Below are positions 1 through 10,996 of a stretch of 36,257 bases of DNA, in pieces. This DNA comes from an uncultured Pelagibacteraceae bacterium. Lineage in GTDB: Bacteria > Pseudomonadota > Alphaproteobacteria > Pelagibacterales > Pelagibacteraceae. The stretch spans positions 1 to 36,257 of the forward strand of contig CACKXH010000006.1 of the NCBI GenBank assembly GCA_902604005.1. Direction: 5' to 3'. The position numbers and the translations under genes were made by a program. Within the stretch, counting starts at the first letter, position 1. Each line of letters starts with the position of its first letter. The notes below the pieces were generated by a model. That model saw only the letters and a program-made list of their open reading frames with translations, was not told the DNA's origin and did not search any database.

Positions 1-1
1 T

Positions 2-790
2 GAGATACAAATAAGAACAAAAGAAATGCATGAGTTTGCAGAAAGAGGAATAGCTTCTCATTGGCAATACAAGTCTTCAGAAAAGTTTAATTCACTAACT
101 TGGAAAGAATATGATTGGCTTAAAGATTTGGTAGAAATTATAGAAAAAAATGAAAATCCGGAACATTCATATGAATACACAAAACTTCAAATGTTTCAGG
201 AAAATGTTTTTTGTTTTACCCCAAAAGGTTCAGTAATTAAATTGCCAAAAGACGCAACACCAATTGATTTTGCTTATGCTGTTCATACTAAGGTTGGTGA
301 CAATGCGATTGGTTGTGAAATCAACGGTAACAAAAGTGAACTTCAAACTATTCTTAGAAATGGAGATAGAGTAAATATTATTACATCAAAAAACCAATCA
401 CCATCCTTACACTGGATACCAATTACAAAAACAGGAAAGGCTAGAGCCGCAATAAGAAGATATTGGCATGATCGAGGTGAAAAAAAACAAGAAAGAATTA
501 AAAAATATAACACAACTTTATGGATCTCTTTACCTGATAAACCTGGTCAATTAGGAAATGTAAGCTCATTAATAGGTCAACACAAATTAAATATCTCAAA
601 TCTAGAAATGGCAGGCAAAAACCCTAATTATATTAATTTTAAATTTCAGTTAATCATAAGAGATCTAAAAAATTTCACTAATTTTATTGCAGAGCTCAAA
701 CAAAAAGGTATAAAATTTAAGATAATTAGACACGAAGATAAAAGAAATGCTTTCACACAAAAAATCCTTAAATATTTTAAGAAAAACTAA
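2..790 (+). CDS. spoT: Rel/SpoT-family (p)ppGpp synthetase/hydrolase, C-terminal part (5' end outside window)
   Basis: This is the C-terminal end of a RelA/SpoT homologue that makes and/or degrades the stringent-response alarmone (p)ppGpp. The frame is open from base 2, so the gene starts upstream of the window. The first residues, EIQIRTKEMHEFAERGIASHW-like, match the end of the synthetase domain; the ATG at 26 is internal. A TGS domain follows (motif VFCFTPKGSVIKLPKDATP, about residues 60-120 of the visible part). Then comes a short basic helix (TGKARAAIRRYW) and an ACT-like domain starting near TLWISLPDKPGQLGNV. The usual ~150 residues between TGS and ACT (helical linker plus the Cys/His zinc-finger or RIS domain) are absent: only about 25 residues join them. 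The 3' end overlaps pyrE by 44 bp. Whether the enzyme is bifunctional cannot be judged without the HD domain. Confidence 0.93.
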   Translation, partial: EIQIRTKEMHEFAERGIASHWQYKSSEKFNSLTWKEYDWLKDLVEIIEKNENPEHSYEYTKLQMFQENVFCFTPKGSVIKLPKDATPIDFAYAVHTKVGDNAIGCEINGNKSELQTILRNGDRVNIITSKNQSPSLHWIPITKTGKARAAIRRYWHDRGEKKQERIKKYNTTLWISLPDKPGQLGNVSSLIGQHKLNISNLEMAGKNPNYINFKFQLIIRDLKNFTNFIAELKQKGIKFKIIRHEDKRNAFTQKILKYFKKN

Positions 791-1334
791 TGCATTATTA
801 GAAGGACATTTCGTTTTATCTTCAGGGCTTCATTCATCCAAATATATACAATGTGCTAAACTATTGAGTTTCCCTTTTGAAGCTGAAAAAATTTGTAAAT
901 CTTTATCTTATAAAATAAAAAGAAGATTCAAAAAAATTGATCTTATTTTAGCTCCAGCTATGGGTGGAATAATAATTGGTTATGAAATAGGAAGACTTTT
1001 AAAAAAAGAAACTATTTTTTGTGAAAGAGTTAAAGGAAAATTTTCTCTTCGAAGAGGTTTCAAAATTAAAAAAGGGTCAAAAGTTTTAATTGTGGAAGAT
1101 GTTATAACTACTGGTAAATCTAGTATGGAATGTTTAAGATTAGTTAATAAAGCAAAAGCTTCTGTTATTGGCTTTGCTTCTATTATAGACAGATCAACAA
1201 AAAAAACTTTAAAAATCAAAAAAAAAATAATATCTCATTTAAAAATAGATGTACCATCATTTAAAAAAAATCAACTACCCAAAGATTTGAAATTAATCCC
1301 AATAACTACTCCTGGAAGCAGATTCATTAAGTGA
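747..1334 (+). CDS. pyrE: Orotate phosphoribosyltransferase
   Basis: This enzyme converts orotate and PRPP to orotidine 5'-monophosphate, the fifth step of de novo pyrimidine synthesis in the cytosol. The family signature is clear: near the N-terminus [20 protein letters not shown], the phosphate-loop region [18 protein letters not shown], and the PRPP-binding motif [14 protein letters not shown]. At 195 residues it is of normal length. The ATG at 747 is the only usable start before the conserved LLEGHF motif, so it really overlaps the spoT 3' end by 44 bp in another frame. Its own 3' end overlaps the next ORF by 4 bp (GTGA). spoT-pyrE-pdxJ order is plausible for alphaproteobacteria and suggests cotranscription. 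Confidence 0.95.
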
Positions 1335-2536
1335 TACGTTTAGGAGTAAATATTGATCATGTTGCAACACTAAGAAATGCTAGAGGAGAACTACATCCAA
1401 ATCCTGTAAAAGCTGCAAAATATGTCAAAAAAGCTGGAGCGCATTCAGTTACAATACACTTAAGAGAAGATAGGAGACATATAAATGATTTTGATGCTAA
1501 AAAAATATGTTCAATTAAAAAACTTTTAGTAAATTTAGAAATTTCTACAAATCCTAAAATAGTAAACATAGCCTTAAAAATTTGGGAAGGTTTGTCTCAA
1601 GAATTAAATTACAATGTAATGTTTAGTCAAAGAGGAGTTATGAATCTTGCTCATAATCTTCAAGATGTAAGAGATTTAAAAAGAAGGACCCATGCTAATA
1701 GATTGAACGGGATTGATGCTGTTTATTTAAATACTGAACAGGTTAAAAAATTTTGCCCAATAATTAATACTTCTCAAGATATTCGTTATCCAGTCTTAGG
1801 AGGTACTTTACAGAGAAGAGCGGGAACTGCAAGACATGATGCTGTTGCGTGGGGATATGCTAGGGGTGCTGATGAAATGGGAGTTGACATTATTCAAAAT
1901 TGTGAAGTTAAAGGTATTAAAAGAAATGGAGACACTGTTGAAGGTATTGAAACTACTAAAGGATTTATAAAAACTAACAAAATAGGAGTTGTTGCTGCAG
2001 GACATTCTAGTGTTATAGCTAATATGGCCGGTTTAAGATTGCCCTTAGAAAGTAAACCATTACAAGCTTTGGTGTCTGAACCAGTTAAACCAGTTATTGA
2101 TACGGTTGTAATGTCAAATGCTGTTCATGCTTACGTAAGCCAATCGGATAAAGGTGAGCTAGTTATAGGTGCAGGTACAGATGATTATATTTCTTATTCT
2201 CAAAAAGGTAGTCATGATATTGTTGAAGGGACATTAAATGCAATTTTAGAACTATATCCAATATTTAGTCGAATGAGAATGCTTCGACAATGGGGAGGAA
2301 TTGTTGATATTTGTCCTGATGCTAGCCCAATAATAAGTAAAACATCTATTAAGGGTTTATATTTTAATTGTGGCTGGGGAACTGGAGGATTTAAAGCGAC
2401 TCCTGGATCTGGTGATTTGTTTGCACATACGATAGCAAATGATGAACCACATAAACTTAATGCTGCATTTAATATTAATAGATTTGTAAGTGGTGACCTT
2501 GTTGATGAACATGGTGCAGCTGCTGTAGCACACTAA
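1331..2536 (+). CDS. soxB: Chimeric ORF: pdxJ N-terminal fragment fused in frame to sarcosine oxidase beta subunit lacking its N-terminus
   Basis: This 401-codon frame (GTG start, 4-bp overlap with pyrE) contains two unrelated proteins. Residues 1 to about 83 are the start of pyridoxine 5'-phosphate synthase PdxJ ([15 protein letters not shown], then the phosphate/substrate motif HLREDRRHI, then LEISTN). From about residue 82 onward it is sarcosine oxidase beta subunit: [20 protein letters not shown], the flavin-attachment region [18 protein letters not shown] (His169 corresponds to the covalent-FMN His), and the C-terminal [10 protein letters not shown] motif, ending [10 protein letters not shown] as family members do. 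The first ~90-100 SoxB residues, with the GxGxxG FAD-binding fold, are missing, and most of the PdxJ barrel is missing too. Neither activity is expected from the product. The soxD start codon overlaps the stop (TAATG). It may be a genuine deletion or a chimeric sequence join. Confidence 0.9.
1574..1582 (+). other. pdxJ/soxB fusion junction, possible microhomology
   Basis: The protein switches from PdxJ-like to SoxB-like sequence within residues 81-85 (A-L-K-I-W). The codons for L-K-I (tta aaa att) suit both families: PdxJ commonly has an ALKI-type helix end here and SoxB commonly has SLKLWE or SLKIWE. A short shared sequence of about 9 nt is therefore a plausible crossover point. The exact breakpoint is inferred from family knowledge, not from an alignment. 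Downstream of intact alphaproteobacterial pdxJ one would often expect acpS, lepB and rnc; none are present here. Confidence 0.7.
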
Positions 2537-2811
2537 TGTTTGTTATTAATTGTCCTTTCTGTGGAGAACGTGAACAAAGTGAATTTAAAGCTGGTGGTGA
2601 AGCTCATATAGTAAGACCAAAACAACCTACTGAATTAAGTGATGATGAATGGGCAGAATATCTCTTCATGAGAAAAAATATTAAAGGTGTCCAATTTGAA
2701 AGATGGAATCATGCTCATGGTTGCAGAAAATGGTTTAATATGGTTCGAGATACTTCGAATGATGAAATTAAAGCAGTTTATAAAATGGGTGAAAAGCCAC
2801 CAATAGAATAA
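2536..2811 (+). CDS. soxD: Sarcosine oxidase delta subunit
   Basis: Small zinc-binding subunit of the heterotetrameric sarcosine oxidase (alpha-beta-gamma-delta), which oxidatively demethylates sarcosine to glycine. At 91 residues it has the family length. The predicted zinc ligands are visible: Cys6 and Cys9 in NCPFCGERE, and His59 and Cys63 in RWNHAHGCRKWFN. Translation is coupled to the upstream soxB-containing frame through a TAATG overlap, and soxA follows after 1 bp. The gene is intact even though its partner subunit beta is broken in this sequence. Confidence 0.95.
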   Translation: MFVINCPFCGEREQSEFKAGGEAHIVRPKQPTELSDDEWAEYLFMRKNIKGVQFERWNHAHGCRKWFNMVRDTSNDEIKAVYKMGEKPPIE

Positions 2812-2812
2812 A

Positions 2813-5800
2813 ATGACAAAAAATCTTAGAGTTAAAACTGGAAAAGCTATTGATGAAACTTACAGAATTTCATTTAAATTTAATGGAAAAACTTATTATG
2901 GTTTTAAAGGAGATACACTTTCCTCTGCACTATTAGCAAACAATGTTCATTTGGTAGGTAGAAGTTTTAAATACCATAGACCAAGAGGCATCATGACCGC
3001 TGGTTCAGAAGAACCAAATGCTATTGTTCAACTTCATGACAATTCTTCTAGAACAGAACCAAATGTAAGAGCAACAGAAGTCGAGATCTATGAAGGTTTA
3101 GAAGCATCCAGTCAAAATTGTTGGCCTAGTGTAAAGTTTGACGTTGGTGGAATAAATAATTTTTTATCACCTCTACTTCCTGCAGGTTTTTACTACAAAA
3201 CTTTTATGTGGCCTGCTAGTTTTTGGGAAAAATATGAATATTTTATCAGAAAATCAGCCGGATTAGGAAAATCACCTACTGAGCCAGATCCAGACATATA
3301 TGAGCATAGATACATTCATTGTGATGTCTTGGTAATAGGATCAGGTATTTCAGGTGTCATGGCTGCAAAAACTGCAGCCAAAAATGGATTTAAAACACTT
3401 TTAGTTGATGAAAAACCAAATCTTGGAGGATCAACAATTTATCAAAACTCTGATTATTTCAAAATAAACAATCAAAATTCAAACTCATGGCTAGAAAAAG
3501 AAATTAATGAAATTAAAAAATTAAAGAATTTAGAAATTAAAACTAGAACAAGTGTTGCGGCTTATCATGGTTATAACTTTTTATTAGCACGTGAAAATTT
3601 TACTGATCATTTACCTATTGAACAAAGGAAAGATAAAACAAGACACAAACTACTTAAAATAAGAGCAAAAAAAGTAATCTCAGCTACAGGTTCAATAGAA
3701 AGACCAATGGTATTTGACAATAACGATAGACCTGGAATTTTACTTTCATCAGCAATTAAAAGATATGCTGACTTTTTTGGGGTTGCATGTGGTGAAAAAA
3801 ATGTTCTTTTTACTAATAACGATAGCGCATATGAAACTGCGATTAGTTTAATTCAAAAAGGAATAAATATTGAGGCTATAATTGACAATAGAGAAGAAGT
3901 GGACTCTAAATTAGTTTATGAAGTAGAAAAAAATAATATAAAGATTTTCAAAGGCTACACAGTAACAAATACATTTGGCTATAAAAAAATTAGTGGGATT
4001 TCTATAAAACAACTATCTAAAGATGGGCAAAAGGTTGTTGGCTCAAGAATAAATTTATCTTGTGATTGCCTTGGTGTTTCTGGTGGATGGACACCAGCTG
4101 TTCATCTATTTACTCAATCTGGTGGAAAATTAAAGTTCAGAGATGAAGACCAAGTATTTATCCCTAGCATTTACCCTTCTGATCAACTAAGCATTGGTTC
4201 ATGTAATGGTGATTTTACTTTAGATGAAATTTTAATAAATACACCTAAATCTTTAAAAGAATTTTTAAATATCAAAAATACTGAATACGAGAGTTTAGAA
4301 GTTATATCCTCAACTAATAAATCAAAAAGAAATATTTGGCTATTACCGTCAGATAAAGTTCTGGGTAAAACAAAATCTTTTGTTGACTATCAAAATGATG
4401 CTACTGCAAAAGATATTAAACTAGCATTAAGAGAAGGTTTTAGATCAATTGAACATGTAAAAAGATACACAACCACTGGAATGGGAACAGACCAAGGTAA
4501 ATTAGGTAATATGCATGCGCTTGGAATTATTTCTGAAACAGCAGGTGCAAAAATGGGTGAATTAGGCACCACTACTTTTAGACCACCCTACACTCCTTTA
4601 ACTTTTGGAACGATAGTTGGAAGAAATGTTGGAGAATATTTTGACATATTTAGAAAAACTCCAATTCATAGTTGGCATGAAAAAAATAAAGCAGAATTTG
4701 AAAATGTAGGTCAATGGAAAAGAGCTTGGTATTATCCAAAAGAAAATGAAAATATGCACCAGGCAGTTCAAAGAGAAAGTAAAGCAGCAAGAGAAAGTGC
4801 TGGAATTTTAGATGCATCTACTCTTGGTAAAATTGATATTCAAGGAACTGATGCTTCTGAATTTTTAAATCGAGTTTATACTAATGCTTGGTCAAAACTA
4901 GCTATCGGTAAATGTCGATATGGTTTAATGCTTAACGAAGATGGCATGGTATATGATGATGGTGTTACTACTCGATTAGGTGAAAATCATTATATAATGA
5001 CGACAACAACAGGCGGTGCCGCTAATGTAATGGGTAAACTTGAAGATTACCTGCAAACAGAATGGCCAGAATTAGATGTTTATTTAACATCAGTAACAGA
5101 TCATTTTGCAACAATAAGTGTTTGTGGTCCAAATAGTAAAAAAATTGTAAGTGAAGTTATTTCAGATTTAGATTTTTCAGACGAAAGTTTTCCACATATG
5201 TCATTTAAGAATGCAAAAATTGGTAAAATTAATTGCAGAGTAATGAGAATTAGTTTCACAGGGGAACATAGTTATGAAATTAATATTCAGGCTAACTATG
5301 GTAAATCAGTTTGGGAAAAATGTATGGAAGCTGGAAAAGATTACAATATTACACCATATGGCACTGAAACAATGCATTTACTTAGAGCTGAAAAAGGTTT
5401 CATAATTGTAGGTCAAGATACTGACGCTACAATGACCCCTATCGATTTACAGATGGATTGGATTGTAAGTAAAAAGAAATATGATTTTATTGGAAAAAGA
5501 TCTTTATATAGATCTGACACTATTAGAGAAGATAGAAAACAGCTTGTTGGATTATTAACTGAAGATCCTAATGAAGTTTTAGAAGAGGGAGCACAAATAG
5601 TAGCTGATGTAAAAAAATCACCTATCGAAATGTTAGGACATATTACTTCAAGTTATTTTAGTCCTAACCTTAAAAAATCTATAGCTCTTGGAGTTGTTAG
5701 AGGCGGAAAAAATATGATTGGACAAAAATTGATAATTCCGATGGAAAAAAAGAATATCAATGTAACAGTTGCTGATCCAGTTTTTTTAGATAAGGAGAAT

Positions 5801-5818
5801 AAGAGATTAAATGCTTAA
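2813..5818 (+). CDS. soxA: Sarcosine oxidase alpha subunit
   Basis: Large subunit of heterotetrameric sarcosine oxidase. The complex turns sarcosine, THF and O2 into glycine, 5,10-methylene-THF and peroxide. The 1001-residue length matches the family. Residues about 15-95 form the N-terminal ferredoxin-fold-like domain (YGFKGDTLSSALLANN, SFKYHRPRGIMTAG). A Rossmann dinucleotide-binding motif VIGSGISGVMAA lies at 174-185. A middle oxidoreductase section contains ATGSIERPMVF and the TTTGMGTDQGK region. From about residue 610 to the end is a GcvT-like folate-binding domain (AARESAGILDASTLGKIDIQ; GLMLNEDGMVYDDGV). The gene follows soxD by 1 bp and overlaps soxG by 8 bp, so the operon is tight. 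In glycine-dependent SAR11-type cells it would supply glycine and C1 units; that role is inferred. Confidence 0.96.
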   Translation: MTKNLRVKTGKAIDETYRISFKFNGKTYYGFKGDTLSSALLANNVHLVGRSFKYHRPRGIMTAGSEEPNAIVQLHDNSSRTEPNVRATEVEIYEGLEASSQNCWPSVKFDVGGINNFLSPLLPAGFYYKTFMWPASFWEKYEYFIRKSAGLGKSPTEPDPDIYEHRYIHCDVLVIGSGISGVMAAKTAAKNGFKTLLVDEKPNLGGSTIYQNSDYFKINNQNSNSWLEKEINEIKKLKNLEIKTRTSVAAYHGYNFLLARENFTDHLPIEQRKDKTRHKLLKIRAKKVISATGSIERPMVFDNNDRPGILLSSAIKRYADFFGVACGEKNVLFTNNDSAYETAISLIQKGINIEAIIDNREEVDSKLVYEVEKNNIKIFKGYTVTNTFGYKKISGISIKQLSKDGQKVVGSRINLSCDCLGVSGGWTPAVHLFTQSGGKLKFRDEDQVFIPSIYPSDQLSIGSCNGDFTLDEILINTPKSLKEFLNIKNTEYESLEVISSTNKSKRNIWLLPSDKVLGKTKSFVDYQNDATAKDIKLALREGFRSIEHVKRYTTTGMGTDQGKLGNMHALGIISETAGAKMGELGTTTFRPPYTPLTFGTIVGRNVGEYFDIFRKTPIHSWHEKNKAEFENVGQWKRAWYYPKENENMHQAVQRESKAARESAGILDASTLGKIDIQGTDASEFLNRVYTNAWSKLAIGKCRYGLMLNEDGMVYDDGVTTRLGENHYIMTTTTGGAANVMGKLEDYLQTEWPELDVYLTSVTDHFATISVCGPNSKKIVSEVISDLDFSDESFPHMSFKNAKIGKINCRVMRISFTGEHSYEINIQANYGKSVWEKCMEAGKDYNITPYGTETMHLLRAEKGFIIVGQDTDATMTPIDLQMDWIVSKKKYDFIGKRSLYRSDTIREDRKQLVGLLTEDPNEVLEEGAQIVADVKKSPIEMLGHITSSYFSPNLKKSIALGVVRGGKNMIGQKLIIPMEKKNINVTVADPVFLDKENKRLNA

Positions 5819-6374
5819 TTATAACCAAGCACTACCTAAAAATACATTAATACAAGATCTTCAAATGAAGGAGATCAAACCAATAATGAAATTGATAATA
5901 AGGGGTAAAAAAAGAGAATTTATTTCTGCTGTTGGAAAATCTTTAAATATTTTATTACCAACTGAAGCTAATACCTCTGCTCAAAGTGATAAATTAACAG
6001 CAGTTTGGTTAAGTCCTGATGAATGGATGATTTATTCTAATGAGCCAGTTGATGAAAATACAAATAACTATAAAACTGAAGAACTATTAAACAATTACAT
6101 TTCAAAATTAAATCTTGGTGCAGTAACAGATGTTACAGATCAATTTGTAATGATTAATCTCAAAGGAAACAAAATTTATGAATTATTTCAAACTGGATCT
6201 CCTTTTAATTTTGATGATTTTCAAAATAAAAAAGGAGCTGTAACACAAACAATTTTAAATAAAATAGATATAATTGTTCATAATCAGGATAAAAATGCAG
6301 TTAATCTGTTTGTTAGACGTTCTTTTTCACAACATTTGTTTTCTTGGATGAACGACGCTGCGTCAAGATTATAG
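5811..6374 (+). CDS. soxG: Sarcosine oxidase gamma subunit
   Basis: Fourth subunit of heterotetrameric sarcosine oxidase, distantly related to the GcvT fold and needed for complex assembly. It has 187 residues. The recognisable parts are the LSPDEWMIYS motif in the middle and, near the C-terminus, VRRSFSQHLFSWMNDAASRL-like sequence with the family's R-S-F/Y-A/S pattern. Its ATG lies inside the last codons of soxA (8-bp overlap), and the soxB-D-A-G order is the standard one. Sequence conservation in this subunit is low family-wide, so the call rests on both motifs and position. Confidence 0.92.
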   Translation: MLNYNQALPKNTLIQDLQMKEIKPIMKLIIRGKKREFISAVGKSLNILLPTEANTSAQSDKLTAVWLSPDEWMIYSNEPVDENTNNYKTEELLNNYISKLNLGAVTDVTDQFVMINLKGNKIYELFQTGSPFNFDDFQNKKGAVTQTILNKIDIIVHNQDKNAVNLFVRRSFSQHLFSWMNDAASRL

Positions 6375-6402
6375 TCTCTATTAATTTTCAAATAGGTTAT
6401 TT

Positions 6403-6407
6403 AAGGA
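6403..6407 (+). promoter_or_regulatory. Shine-Dalgarno for the solute-binding protein gene
   Basis: AAGGA lies just upstream of the ATG at 6409. Most genes here are translationally coupled and lack clear ribosome-binding sites, so this one supports independent, strong initiation of a binding protein, which is normally made in excess over its permease. The spacing is shorter than ideal. I could not define a promoter in the 34-bp gap after soxG. Confidence 0.5.
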
Positions 6408-6408
6408 T

Positions 6409-7176
6409 ATGAAAAAATTACTTTTAATAGCAATATTTGCTCTTTTACCCTTTTCTTTAAACGCAGAATCTAATTTGGACAAAATACTTTCAGCTGGAGT
6501 TTTAAAAGTTGGAACAACTGGAGATTGGGATCCAATGACAATGAAAGATCCAGCAACTAATAAATATAAGGGATTTGACATTGATGTTATGAACGAATTA
6601 GCTAAAGACATGGGGGTTAAAGTTGAATTTGTTCCTGCAGAATGGAAAACTATAGTTTCTGGTATCACATCCGAAAGATATGATATTTCTACAAGTGTAA
6701 CTAAAACACCAAAAAGAGCAGAAGTAGCAGGATTTACAGACACTTATTATAAATATGGAACTGTGCCATTGGTTCTTAAAAAGAATTTAAAAAAATTTTC
6801 AACGTGGGACTCACTTAATAATTCAAAAGTAACAATCGCTACAACACTTGGTACATCTCAAGAAGAAAAAGCGAAAGAATTTTTTCCTAAATCAAAATTG
6901 AACTCAGTTGAAGCACCAGCAAGAGACTTTCAAGAGGTTTTAGCTGGAAGAGCAGATGGGAATATTACAAGTTCGACAGAAGCAAACAAATTAGTAATCA
7001 AATATCCACAATTAGCTATAGTTCCTGATGGAGAAAAAAATCCAGCCTTTTTAGCAATGATGGTTCCTAAAGGTGACTCTAAATGGAACAACTACGTTAA
7101 TGAATGGATTAAAAAGAAAAAATCGTCAGGCTTTTTTACTAAGTTATTAGCTAAATATAATCTAAAAAGCTTATAA
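6409..7176 (+). CDS. Periplasmic amino-acid-type solute-binding protein (family 3, PheC-like)
   Basis: Extracytoplasmic solute-binding protein of ABC importer family 3. Residues 1-19 are a Sec signal peptide ([19 protein letters not shown], cleavage before ES). The mature part starts with [20 protein letters not shown] and [16 protein letters not shown], the family-3 lobe I pattern, and continues with [21 protein letters not shown]. The overall pattern resembles the binding proteins related to periplasmic cyclohexadienyl dehydratase (PheC), including the C-terminal [14 protein letters not shown] stretch. The ligand cannot be read from sequence. The permease lies 40 bp downstream and sarcosine oxidase immediately upstream, so a small amino acid or N-methyl amine is possible, but that is a guess. 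Alternative: a PheC-type periplasmic enzyme, less likely beside a permease. Confidence 0.88.
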
Positions 7177-7216
7177 TCAATTAGTAATTAATTTTTAATT
7201 CTTTATAAATCAAAGA

Positions 7217-7957
7217 GTGAGAAATTTATTTTTTTTACTTTTAATACTTCCTTTAACCTCATGTGGTAAAAGTGAACTTAATTGGTTGATTTTATCTCCA
7301 AACAATATTGAAGGATTAACTAATCTTAAATTTTTATTAAGTGGGATAACTACAACTATCTATATTTCAATAGTATCAATTGTTATTTCAATGATGATTG
7401 GTTTTATTGTTGCAGTCCCTTCTTTAGCAAAAAGTAAATTTTTAACTTATTTGAATATTGGATATGTCGAAATAGTAAGAGCTATTCCTCTTCTAGTTTT
7501 AATCTTATGGATTTATTATGGTTTACCCATTATGACCGGGGTAAGCTTTAGTCCTTTTGTTTCAGGAATCATTGCCTTGTCTATAAGTGAAAGTGCATTT
7601 CAAGCTGAAATTTTTAGAGCAGGTATAAACTCAATCAAAAAAGCTCAATGGGAAGCAGGAAGTTCACTAGGTTTAGATTTTTTAAAAAAATTAAGATTAG
7701 TAATTTTACCACAGGCAATAAAAAATATTTTACCTGCTATCGGAAATCAATTTGTTTATGTTTTAAAAATGTCTTCATTGGTTTCAATAATAGGAATCGG
7801 AGATTTAACTAGAAAGGCTAATGAGTTAGTTGTAACAACTTATAGACCTTTAGAAATTTATACATTTTTAATTCTTGAATATTTAGCATTAATATTAATT
7901 GTTTCTTATGTTGTTAGAAAATTAGAAAAAAAATTAAAAAAAGACTCTAACAATTGA
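7217..7957 (+). CDS. Amino-acid ABC transporter permease (HisM/GlnP type) with lipobox-like N-terminus
   Basis: Inner-membrane permease of a polar amino acid ABC importer. It carries the family pattern: a membrane helix beginning near LLSGITTTIYISIVSIVISM, the motif YVEIVRAIPLLVLILWIYYGLP, and the ATPase-contact EAA loop QWEAGSSLGLDFLKKLRLVILPQA, followed by GNQFVYVLKMSSLVSIIG. The start is GTG; no earlier or nearby in-frame ATG is available. The first ~20 residues (LLLILPLTSCGKS) look like a lipoprotein signal with a Cys, a feature I also recall from alphaproteobacterial relatives of this permease. No ATP-binding subunit is encoded beside it. The 3' end overlaps the convergent Fe-ADH gene by 11 bp. 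Confidence 0.9.
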   Translation: MRNLFFLLLILPLTSCGKSELNWLILSPNNIEGLTNLKFLLSGITTTIYISIVSIVISMMIGFIVAVPSLAKSKFLTYLNIGYVEIVRAIPLLVLILWIYYGLPIMTGVSFSPFVSGIIALSISESAFQAEIFRAGINSIKKAQWEAGSSLGLDFLKKLRLVILPQAIKNILPAIGNQFVYVLKMSSLVSIIGIGDLTRKANELVVTTYRPLEIYTFLILEYLALILIVSYVVRKLEKKLKKDSNN

Positions 7958-9116
7958 AAAGGACCCCATTCATACTATTCTCATACATAATTTTCATATC
8001 ATTGAGAGTTAACTTTTTTGGATTAGTTATTGTTGATGGATCTGATAAAGCCATTTTGGACAATCTTTCGATATCAAAATCTTTTTCTGAAATTATTTCA
8101 GATAAGCTGTGAGGTATATTCAATTTTTTTCTTAGATCTAAAACCCAATTAATAAATTCATCAAATGACTCATTTTTAAATTCTAAGTGATTACATATTT
8201 TTAAAATTTTTTTTTCAATGACATCCTTATTAAAAGTTAAAACATAAGGCATAAAAATAGCATTGGATAGACCATGGTGTACGTTGTTTAAAGCATTAAT
8301 TGGATGACTTAGAGAATGAATTGCACCAAGACCTTTTTGAAATGCAGTAGATCCCATACAGGCTGCTGCCAACATATTCATTCTGGCTTCTAAATTTGAT
8401 CCATTATTAACAGCTTCAATTAAATATTTATCAATTAGTCGAATTCCTTCCAACGCAATTCCATCAGCCATCGGATGGAAGCTTGGAGAGCAATATGCTT
8501 CTAAGTTATGAGCTAAAGCATCCATTCCAGTAGCCGCCGTCAGATTTTTTGGTAAATCAATTGTTAAAGTAGGATCTAAAATTACAATTGATGGTAAAAA
8601 TTTAGGATGGAATATAATCTTTTTCAAACCAGCTTCCTCATCTAATATTACAGATGCTCTACCAGTTTCAGATCCAGTTCCAGCAGTTGTTGGTATTGCA
8701 ATAATTGGAGAAATTTTTTCAGAATTAGCTTTAGTCCAATTGTCACCTATATCTTCAAAATCCCATAAAGGTAAAGTTTGAGGTACCATGAAAGCTATAG
8801 CTTTGCCAACGTCTAAAGAACTTCCACCTCCTACGGCAATTACACCATCACAACTATTTTTTTTATAAAAATCTACACCATCCATAACGTTCGTACCAGT
8901 TGGGTTTCCTCTTATATTAGAAAATATTTTACAGTTTAAATTTTTGGTTTTAAGATCTGATAAAATATTTTTAATTATTTCAGAAGTTGAAAAAGCTTCA
9001 TCGGTAACTAACAAAGGTCTGTTAATAGATAGATTTTTACATGCAGAAGCAAGCTCTCTAATCCTATTTTTGCCAATCCAAATAGAAGTTGGATAATTCC
9101 AGTTTATATTGTTCAT
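7947..9116 (-). CDS. Iron-containing alcohol dehydrogenase
   Basis: Group III, Fe-dependent, NAD(P)-linked alcohol dehydrogenase of 389 residues. The nucleotide-binding motif GVIAVGGGSSLDVGKA lies at residues 91-106 and IPTTAGTGSETG at about 141-152. The four metal ligands are present with FucO-like spacing: Asp199 and His203 in GMDALAHNLEAY, His267 in GAIHSLSHP, and His281 in NVHHG. Substrate is not predictable. In SAR11, an enzyme of this family has been linked to oxidation of methanol and other short alcohols in one-carbon metabolism (published work recalled, not checked). It is the last gene of the - strand cluster, 19 bp after the nuclease gene, and overlaps the permease tail to tail by 11 bp. 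Confidence 0.94.
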   Translation of the reverse strand: MNNINWNYPTSIWIGKNRIRELASACKNLSINRPLLVTDEAFSTSEIIKNILSDLKTKNLNCKIFSNIRGNPTGTNVMDGVDFYKKNSCDGVIAVGGGSSLDVGKAIAFMVPQTLPLWDFEDIGDNWTKANSEKISPIIAIPTTAGTGSETGRASVILDEEAGLKKIIFHPKFLPSIVILDPTLTIDLPKNLTAATGMDALAHNLEAYCSPSFHPMADGIALEGIRLIDKYLIEAVNNGSNLEARMNMLAAACMGSTAFQKGLGAIHSLSHPINALNNVHHGLSNAIFMPYVLTFNKDVIEKKILKICNHLEFKNESFDEFINWVLDLRKKLNIPHSLSEIISEKDFDIERLSKMALSDPSTITNPKKLTLNDMKIMYENSMNGVLFNC

Positions 9117-9135
9117 TTAAAATTACACAATTATA

Positions 9136-9663
9136 TTATTTTTTTTTTCGCCAATTCCAAGGTTTATCGAATGTTCCCTTCCATAGACCTAATTTATTTT
9201 TTTTTGCAATATTTTCTTCAGCAATATATCTTTTTGAGTATTTTTTATAAGCTATTGCATAACCATTCAGAACCATCCATGAATTAATATTAGTTTTATC
9301 TTTAAAACATTCTGCAATAAACCTTTTATATCTATCCTTTCCATTGATTTTACATGTAACTAATTTGTTATTAATCATATTTTTAAGTTTATTACTTGCA
9401 ACTTTTCCGCAAGGGTAGTCTTTATTTAATATAATAAAAGATAAAGACAAATAAGGTTTTTGACAATATTGTTTAACTTCAGGCGCATCTATACCATAAA
9501 ATCGAATTTTATTAGAATCTATCCAAATAGTATCTCCATCAATAACTTTTGCTATCCCAGATATAATCTTAATTTCTTTAGATTTAACATCATTATAGGT
9601 TAAAAAGAAAAATATTAGACAGATACTAATAACTAAAAAGAGTTTTATTTTGTTTAAAAACAT
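9136..9663 (-). CDS. Secreted or membrane-anchored thermonuclease-family protein (SNase-like)
   Basis: Staphylococcal-nuclease-fold protein of 175 residues. An N-terminal hydrophobic segment (residues about 7-23, LFLVISICLIFFFL) is a signal peptide or membrane anchor, so the nuclease acts outside the cytoplasm. The catalytic pattern is present: VIDGDTIWI, then IRFYGIDAPEVKQYC (the R, D and E of the SNase site) and DRYKRFIAECF (second Arg). Four Cys (QYC, YPCG, TCKI, ECF) could form disulfides. The start ATG lies within the last codons of the MATE gene (38-bp overlap). A role in using external DNA or RNA as a phosphate or nucleoside source is inferred. Confidence 0.88.
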   Translation of the reverse strand: MFLNKIKLFLVISICLIFFFLTYNDVKSKEIKIISGIAKVIDGDTIWIDSNKIRFYGIDAPEVKQYCQKPYLSLSFIILNKDYPCGKVASNKLKNMINNKLVTCKINGKDRYKRFIAECFKDKTNINSWMVLNGYAIAYKKYSKRYIAEENIAKKNKLGLWKGTFDKPWNWRKKK

Positions 9664-10996
9664 TATTTAAAAAATAACCAATAAATATTAATACAGCAAT
9701 ACCCATTGCCCAATTTGTAGCCATGATTGTGTAGAATATATCTTCATATTCCCCCCCTCTAATATTAATCACGTACCATAAACTTAAAAAAGGAAACGCA
9801 GTCAATCTTAGAATGCTTAAATAAAGACTATAAAGAGGTTTTTTTACAGCTTGAAATACTGCTGTAGTAATAAAGAACACGGGATAAATTGGTCCAATTA
9901 ATGCTGCAATTTTTAAATAAATAGCTCCACTCATAACTGCTTCTTGGTTGTCGGTAAATATAGAAACAAAAAATTCAGCACCAAAAAATATTATTAATCC
10001 AGCAATTGCCATGAATGAAGAACCAAATAATAGCGCCTTGGTGTAAAGTTCTCTAATTCTATCATAAGCTTTAGCACCAAAATTTTGTCCACCAATAGAA
10101 AGGACTGCTGTATTTAATCCAATAACTGGCAGTAAAAAAACTTGTTCGACTCTTAATGCTGCTCCATAACCAGCGGTAGCTAGATCACCAAATTGACCAA
10201 TAAAATATAGAATATTGAAAATACCTACACCAATAAATAACATACTGAACATAACGGGGACTGCTTGTGTTGTTAAAGGTTTTAAATATTCAAATTTAGG
10301 AATAAAACATTTTAATTTCAAATACTCTCTAATTTTACAATCATTAACTTTATAAGCTAAATAAATTGTTCCAATTAATTGTGAAATCACCGTTGCTATA
10401 GCAAGTCCTGCTATACCAAACCCAGGTATAAATCCATATCCCCATATAAAAAGAGGATTTAAAAAAATGTTTAGAAAAAAACTAAAGATTAAAACATTTC
10501 TATAACTTTTTGTGTCGCCTTGGGCATTTAAAGTTCCATTTAATGAAATTTGTATCAATACAATAAAAGTTCCATAAAAAATGATATCTAAATATTCTCT
10601 TGTTAAAGCTATACTTTCTGCATCAGATCCCATAACTCCCAGCAAATAATTTGAAGCATTCAAACCAAATAAAGTTACAAATATTGATACAATAAAAGCA
10701 AAAATTAGAGATTGAGCAATATACATGGAAGCAACTCTTACTTTTTTTTCACCTATTGAATTACCAATTAAAGCATTTGTTGCAGCACCTAAACCAACAC
10801 CAACAGCAATGATAGTAAAATAAATTGGAAATGATTTTGCTATAGCTCCTATAGCTTCTGCAGAAATTCTACCAGCAAACCAAGTATCAACTAGATTATA
10901 AAAAGTCTGAAATAATGAGCCAACACTTGCTGGTACAGTAACTTTTCTAAGTAGTGCCCAAATTGGATCTTTAGTTAGTTTTATTGATTTCGACAA
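9626..10996 (-). CDS. MATE-family efflux transporter
   Basis: Inner-membrane multidrug and toxic compound extrusion protein with about 12 predicted helices over 456 residues. The N-terminus WALLRKVTVPASVGSLFQTF and NLVDTWFAGRISAEAIGAIA is the MatE domain pattern, and a second copy begins near GVGIFNILYFIGQFG. Substrate and coupling ion (Na+ or H+) cannot be told from sequence. The start is TTG at 10996, supported by an AAGGA site; no in-frame ATG occurs until far inside the first domain. It begins 8 bp after trhO and overlaps the nuclease gene at its 3' end. Confidence 0.92.
   Translation of the reverse strand: MSKSIKLTKDPIWALLRKVTVPASVGSLFQTFYNLVDTWFAGRISAEAIGAIAKSFPIYFTIIAVGVGLGAATNALIGNSIGEKKVRVASMYIAQSLIFAFIVSIFVTLFGLNASNYLLGVMGSDAESIALTREYLDIIFYGTFIVLIQISLNGTLNAQGDTKSYRNVLIFSFFLNIFLNPLFIWGYGFIPGFGIAGLAIATVISQLIGTIYLAYKVNDCKIREYLKLKCFIPKFEYLKPLTTQAVPVMFSMLFIGVGIFNILYFIGQFGDLATAGYGAALRVEQVFLLPVIGLNTAVLSIGGQNFGAKAYDRIRELYTKALLFGSSFMAIAGLIIFFGAEFFVSIFTDNQEAVMSGAIYLKIAALIGPIYPVFFITTAVFQAVKKPLYSLYLSILRLTAFPFLSLWYVINIRGGEYEDIFYTIMATNWAMGIAVLIFIGYFLNNVFKQNKTLFSY

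Follow-up and report, generated by a model that had tools for sequence, protein, structure and literature searches.

An in-frame pdxJ::soxB fusion near the tip of a SAR11 contig is probably an amplification chimera

Near its start, a SAR11 contig carries a single open reading frame that begins as pdxJ and ends as soxB, which raises the question of whether this is a gene of the organism or a product of the way in which its DNA was amplified or assembled. The stretch of DNA analysed here (the window) has 36,257 nucleotides, corresponds to bases 1-36257 of contig C6 and begins at the contig's first base; the source genome assembly comprises 700,742 bases in 30 contigs and is 67% complete. From the sequence comparisons described below, the fusion appears to be an amplification artefact (a chimera of multiple displacement amplification, MDA) and not a real gene, a reading to which we assign a probability of about 0.87. 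The features that bear on the question are the following:

1-1570, strand not assigned: inverted contig tail, containing the SpoT/RelA 3' part, pyrE and the first 80 pdxJ codons, turned round relative to the rest of the contig when compared with relatives
2-790, open at the window start: SpoT/RelA 3' part, with TGS and ACT domains
747-1334, plus strand: pyrE, orotate phosphoribosyltransferase, profile nearly whole (TIGR01367, 204.9 bits, cut-off 150.25, profile 3-187 of 187)
1331-1582, plus strand: 5' third of pdxJ, extending no further than residue 84 (PF03740, profile 1-82 of 234)
1571-1582, strand not assigned: junction zone GCCTTAAAAATT, encoding ALKI, which fits both genes, with the crossover somewhere within it, as judged from column identities to the relatives' pdxJ and soxB
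1571-2536, plus strand: soxB without its first 96 codons (TIGR01373, profile 84-407)
2536-2811, plus strand: soxD (TIGR01374)
2813-5818, plus strand: soxA (TIGR01372)
5811-6374, plus strand: soxG (TIGR01375, score 69.4, below the cut-off of 143.95)

The fused frame runs uninterrupted from a GTG at 1331 to a stop codon ending at 2536 (401 aa), and is made of PdxJ residues 1-80, a common A-L-K-I (residues 81-84) and SoxB without its first 96 residues. The PdxJ profile PF03740 matches residues 3-84 (E 2.5e-28; 99.2 bits, above the cut-off of 24.5), PF01266 (DAO) matches residues 76-366 over profile positions 62-352 of 353, and the soxB model TIGR01373 matches residues 71-393 up to the last of its 407 positions (534.2 bits, just above the cut-off of 529.45). 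These three matches confirm the in-frame pdxJ::soxB chimera that a preliminary description of the window had reported at 1331-2536. That description was also right in placing the switch after about 83 residues, at an L-K-I, as the ALKI begins at residue 81. Its further expectation that an annotation pipeline would call the frame plain soxB is borne out for NCBIfam, since the soxB model is passed and the cut-offs of all six listed NCBIfam PdxJ models are failed. However, the Pfam PdxJ cut-off is passed, and both halves would be visible to a pipeline that relies on Pfam.

It had been proposed that neither protein could work as encoded, and this is reasonable, since the frame keeps 80-84 of the about 239 residues of a full-length PdxJ and lacks 96 of the 417 residues of SoxB, so that the N-terminal FAD-binding part of this protein of the sarcosine oxidase beta family is incomplete. 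In the related locus L026, whose SoxB has 417 aa, the part matching the window begins at residue 97, and PF01266 covers profile positions 1-352, compared with 62-352 in the window frame. The missing portion includes GGGGHG at residue 40, which we take to be a dinucleotide-binding motif and which, together with the truncations, underlies the view that both parts would be inactive.

To place the switch, the window was aligned to its relatives, with 53 rows on the pdxJ side and 99 on the soxB side (L097 included). Identity to the relatives' pdxJ drops from 1583 onward and is near zero at many columns, while identity to their soxB before 1571 is at or near zero in many columns; the other columns there match by chance, and such scattered matches are explained by the AT-rich DNA. 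The twelve bases between these limits, 1571-1582, are acceptable to both genes. We compared the relatives' own pdxJ and soxB over these 12 bases in 52 of the 53 rows (L097 was left out as out of register), and found 5-11 identical bases, with a median of 8. By comparison, random registers over the same bases gave a mean of 3.5 identical, and 0.8% of them reached 8. Between the two genes of a relative, the longest exact match at the junction register had a median of 4 bases (range 2-9), a length of 4 being reached by 8.5% of random registers. Judging from the relatives, it is likely that the two genes share a short stretch at the join.

The preliminary description had noted that the two sides of the fusion are not normally joined. 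This stands for the fusion itself, but pdxJ and soxB are in fact near neighbours in relatives, on opposite strands: in the normal SAR11 locus, pdxJ-pyrE-spoT/relA lies about 7 kb from soxB and on the other strand. Of 80 related loci that were fetched, 53 contain both genes; pdxJ and soxB lie on opposite strands in every one of these, with the match starts 6855-9004 bases apart (median 6873). A search of 60 other genomes of the genus found, among the matches listed, 44 with a pdxJ-side match in addition to a strong one to soxB; these were on one contig in 35 genomes and on different contigs in nine, the latter being uninformative on orientation. The strands were opposite in 35/35 of the same-contig genomes, among the matches listed, with the match starts 7.0-11.6 kb apart, although these genomes and the fetched loci probably overlap and are not independent samples.

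The individual genes are also regular in these loci. SoxB has 417-428 aa in 79/80 loci, the remaining one being cut by a contig end, and PdxJ has 237-240 aa in 49/53. The four non-standard PdxJ are those of L032 and L077, both cut by a contig end, that of L054 (203 aa), and that of L046, a second chimera described below. In L054, the pdxJ starting at 3147 (minus strand) ends at 203 aa, compared with 237-240 in most others, probably through a frameshift or another artefact. No pdxJ match was present in 27/80 loci, 25 of which have less than 7 kb of left flank before the contig end; the other two, L094 and L102, have a 10 kb flank. In L094 a relA match lies at the very start of the locus, about 9.2 kb before soxB, so the spacing is probably larger there, and in L102 none of relA, pyrE and pdxJ is present in the 10 kb before soxB.

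Set against this layout, the window is composed of two pieces of the same region in inverted orientation. Window 26-1572 aligns to positions 645169-643623 of the complete relative G012 on the minus strand, and window 1571-36252 to positions 650762-684352 on the plus strand, the latter collinear save for small gaps and one extra gene; the join thus spans 7139 bases in G012, inverted. The same inverted arrangement of two pieces from one genome is seen with L026, where window 2-1552 aligns to 4482-2932. To the right of the join, the soxD-soxA-soxG block (2536-6374, plus strand) is collinear with the relatives, including G012. Further along, window 7947-9116 (minus strand) carries a gene for a 389-aa iron-containing alcohol dehydrogenase (PF00465, PF25137) without a counterpart in G012. 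At this site the flanking matches are separated by about 10 bases in G012 and about 380 bases in L026, and it is a spot of variable gene content.

An inverted join can arise from a template switch, or from an inversion that has one breakpoint in pdxJ and the other in soxB, but a deletion cannot produce it. The preliminary description had offered a microhomology-mediated deletion fusing two genes of the same direction, an idea with which a join at a short sequence acceptable to both genes would agree. With pdxJ and soxB on opposite strands in all 53 loci and, among the matches listed, in all 35 genomes where both are placed, no deletion would put them head to tail, and we consider this origin to have almost no chance of being correct. 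A simple deletion was accordingly rejected on these orientations.

The other genuine rearrangement to be weighed is a true chromosomal inversion of about 7 kb, with its ends at short matching sequence within the two genes and its right end in the window. The geometry of the junction is exactly that of one end of an inversion, and the right end of a true 7 kb inversion would give the same junction, which we count against an artefact; the short shared stretch suits both origins alike. However, the comparison with related SAR11 genomes that had been suggested as a check returned none with the same junction among the matches listed. The pdxJ::soxB junction is absent from all 53 loci holding both genes and, among the matches listed, from the 35 same-contig genomes of the genus. 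In a junction-spanning search of 399 genomes (the window's own included), of which 375 matched, only the window's own row crosses the join among the matches listed, all other rows starting at base 87 or later of the 200-base query (window 1563). A conserved fusion gene was rejected on this ground, as no relative carries the fusion among the matches listed. An inversion private to one cell would look alike. It would, however, break pdxJ as well as soxB, and with them the one PdxJ match in the assembly, and the join lies 1.57 kb from the contig start, near the tip, as expected of an artefact.

An inversion should also leave a reciprocal junction, and here the remainder of the assembly is relevant. 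The pdxJ 3' half and the soxB 5' part were not found in the window's own assembly, an absence that is weak evidence against an inversion at 67% completeness. The search of this assembly for intact copies, also proposed earlier, found neither pdxJ nor soxB elsewhere in it (again at 67% completeness), and neither part of the fusion has a further match there; the fused frame holds its sole PdxJ match. Weighing these points, we regard a true inversion as unlikely. Slightly less likely still is the biological consequence that it would carry, namely that a SAR11 cell or local population bears the 7 kb inversion and has lost its own PdxJ-dependent B6 synthesis together with sarcosine oxidase; if the inversion were true, such a cell would live on vitamin B6 from outside.

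The sequence on both sides of the inverted tail is missing as well. When L026 bases 1-10300, which include the 3' side of pdxJ, the 5' part of soxB and the intervening 5.5 kb, were used as a query against the window's own genome, the window itself was recovered together with five short matches of 34-66 bases. One of these, of 43 bases, is the sole match in the assembly to the 5.5 kb that separates the contig tip from soxB, and the 19.5 kb of G012 beyond pdxJ has three short matches, of 33-86 bases. The inverted tail stands alone in an uncovered region. A join near a contig tip with the surrounding sequence missing would also suit a false join made by the assembler, with no real chimeric molecule behind it. 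Assemblers usually use overlaps longer than the stretch acceptable to both genes, which has no more than 12 bases, 5-11 of them matching within relatives. Moreover, the two pieces lie within the same 7 kb of chromosome, a closeness for which random misjoins would show no preference. An assembler misjoin is therefore, in our view, very improbable.

A second chimera was present among the relatives. L046 comes from Pelagibacterales SAG-MED10, which is titled a single-cell genome, and forms the end of its contig JACWDH010000002.1; at the contig tip (954-2396, minus strand) it carries an open in-frame pdxJ::hemB of 480 aa. Its PdxJ match covers residues 3-170 (profile 1-168 of 234) and its HemB match residues 161-475 (PF00490, profile 3-314 of 317, nearly whole), with the breakpoint near residue 157 of the frame. 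Against G012, L046 aligns from 641576 to 639702 on the minus strand and then from 643385 onward on the plus strand, that is, to inverted pieces separated by about 3.7 kb. The alignments share 21 positions, and G012's own pdxJ and hemB share CAAAT at the join (by eye). With L026 as the single reference, none of the 79 loci but L046 showed an inverted segment of more than 150 bases. Like the window, it has an in-frame fusion beginning in pdxJ, an inverted join and a position at a contig tip; unlike the window, its partner is HemB, its breakpoint is another and its pieces are 3.7 kb rather than 7.1 kb apart. Two different in-frame inverted pdxJ chimeras near contig tips, one from a genome titled as single-cell and the other from a genome that is probably so, are what an artefact predicts, and not what a selected fusion predicts.

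Chimera formation during amplification or assembly was among the origins put forward earlier, and the inverted join across 7.1 kb near the contig tip supports it. We infer a single-cell origin for the window's genome, and with it phi29 amplification, from the names of the relatives, as AG- isolate names, presumably those of single-cell isolates, are present in the titles of 63/80 of them (hand count), although many of these titles also begin "MAG:"; the size and completeness of the assembly fit such an origin. The inverted geometry, the distance, the junction zone, the position at the contig tip and the missing neighbours are read directly from the comparisons, and from these we infer the steps that follow. 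During multiple displacement amplification of one SAR11 cell by phi29 polymerase, a strand growing through one gene would be displaced. Its 3' end may then anneal, via 12 or fewer matching bases, to a strand displaced from the neighbouring gene, which lies 7.1 kb off, and copying would continue in the opposite direction, giving inverted pieces and omitting the 5.5 kb that lies between soxB and the contig tip. The assembler would have taken a normal stretch of 34.7 kb or more into the chimera and followed it for 1.57 kb until coverage ended, and the lack of much other coverage in the region is probably why the chimera was retained. Both genes would presumably be intact in the cell.

This explanation agrees with published work on amplified single cells. 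After amplification of one E. coli cell, inverted joins made up 406 of 475 chimeras, and 337 of those linked pieces less than 10 kb apart; most chimera joins carried 2-21 matching bases, matching bases being present in 93.5% of the inverted ones of less than 10 kb, and the rate was about one junction per 22 kb (PMC1855051). Inverted orientation, a distance of less than 10 kb, short homology and an intervening deletion are described there as the signature of MDA chimeras. In the window, the pieces are less than 10 kb apart by the G012 distance, the stretch between them is left out save for the 43-base match, and the switch falls inside the 12-base zone, within the published 2-21 bases. In marine single cells, the rate was one chimera per 13-27 kb, and sufficient coverage let chimeric reads be detected and removed (PMC2668756). 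A later method paper names chimera formation as a limit, and in its benchmark single cells with small genomes had the fewest misassemblies (PMC5519541), so that SAR11 assemblies should not contain many such artefacts, which is mildly against our reading. Three further points were counted against it. An inverted artefact of this kind is present in 1/79 other loci; the reading frame is kept across the join, for which the chance expectation is one in three; and the exact shared run at the join, as estimated from relatives, seems modest.

As an artefact, the fusion would be ordinary, and its interest is as a warning for annotation: MDA chimeras can remain in frame and pass family cut-offs, as the window's passes that of NCBIfam soxB. 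In surveys of gene fusion, gene loss and auxotrophy on single-cell genomes, fusions at contig ends should be tested for inverted joins of less than 10 kb against relatives. Compared with the normal SAR11 locus, the window has the same genes, in the same order from soxB rightwards, but pdxJ and soxB, separate and on opposite strands in the former, are fused head to tail in the latter. The inverted MDA chimeras of Lasken and Stockwell (2007; PMC1855051) resemble the window in being inverted, with pieces less than 10 kb apart, a deletion between them and short matching sequence; they were seen in single reads, whereas that of the window lies in an assembled contig, in frame and with the look of a gene fusion, from a genome whose amplification is probable.
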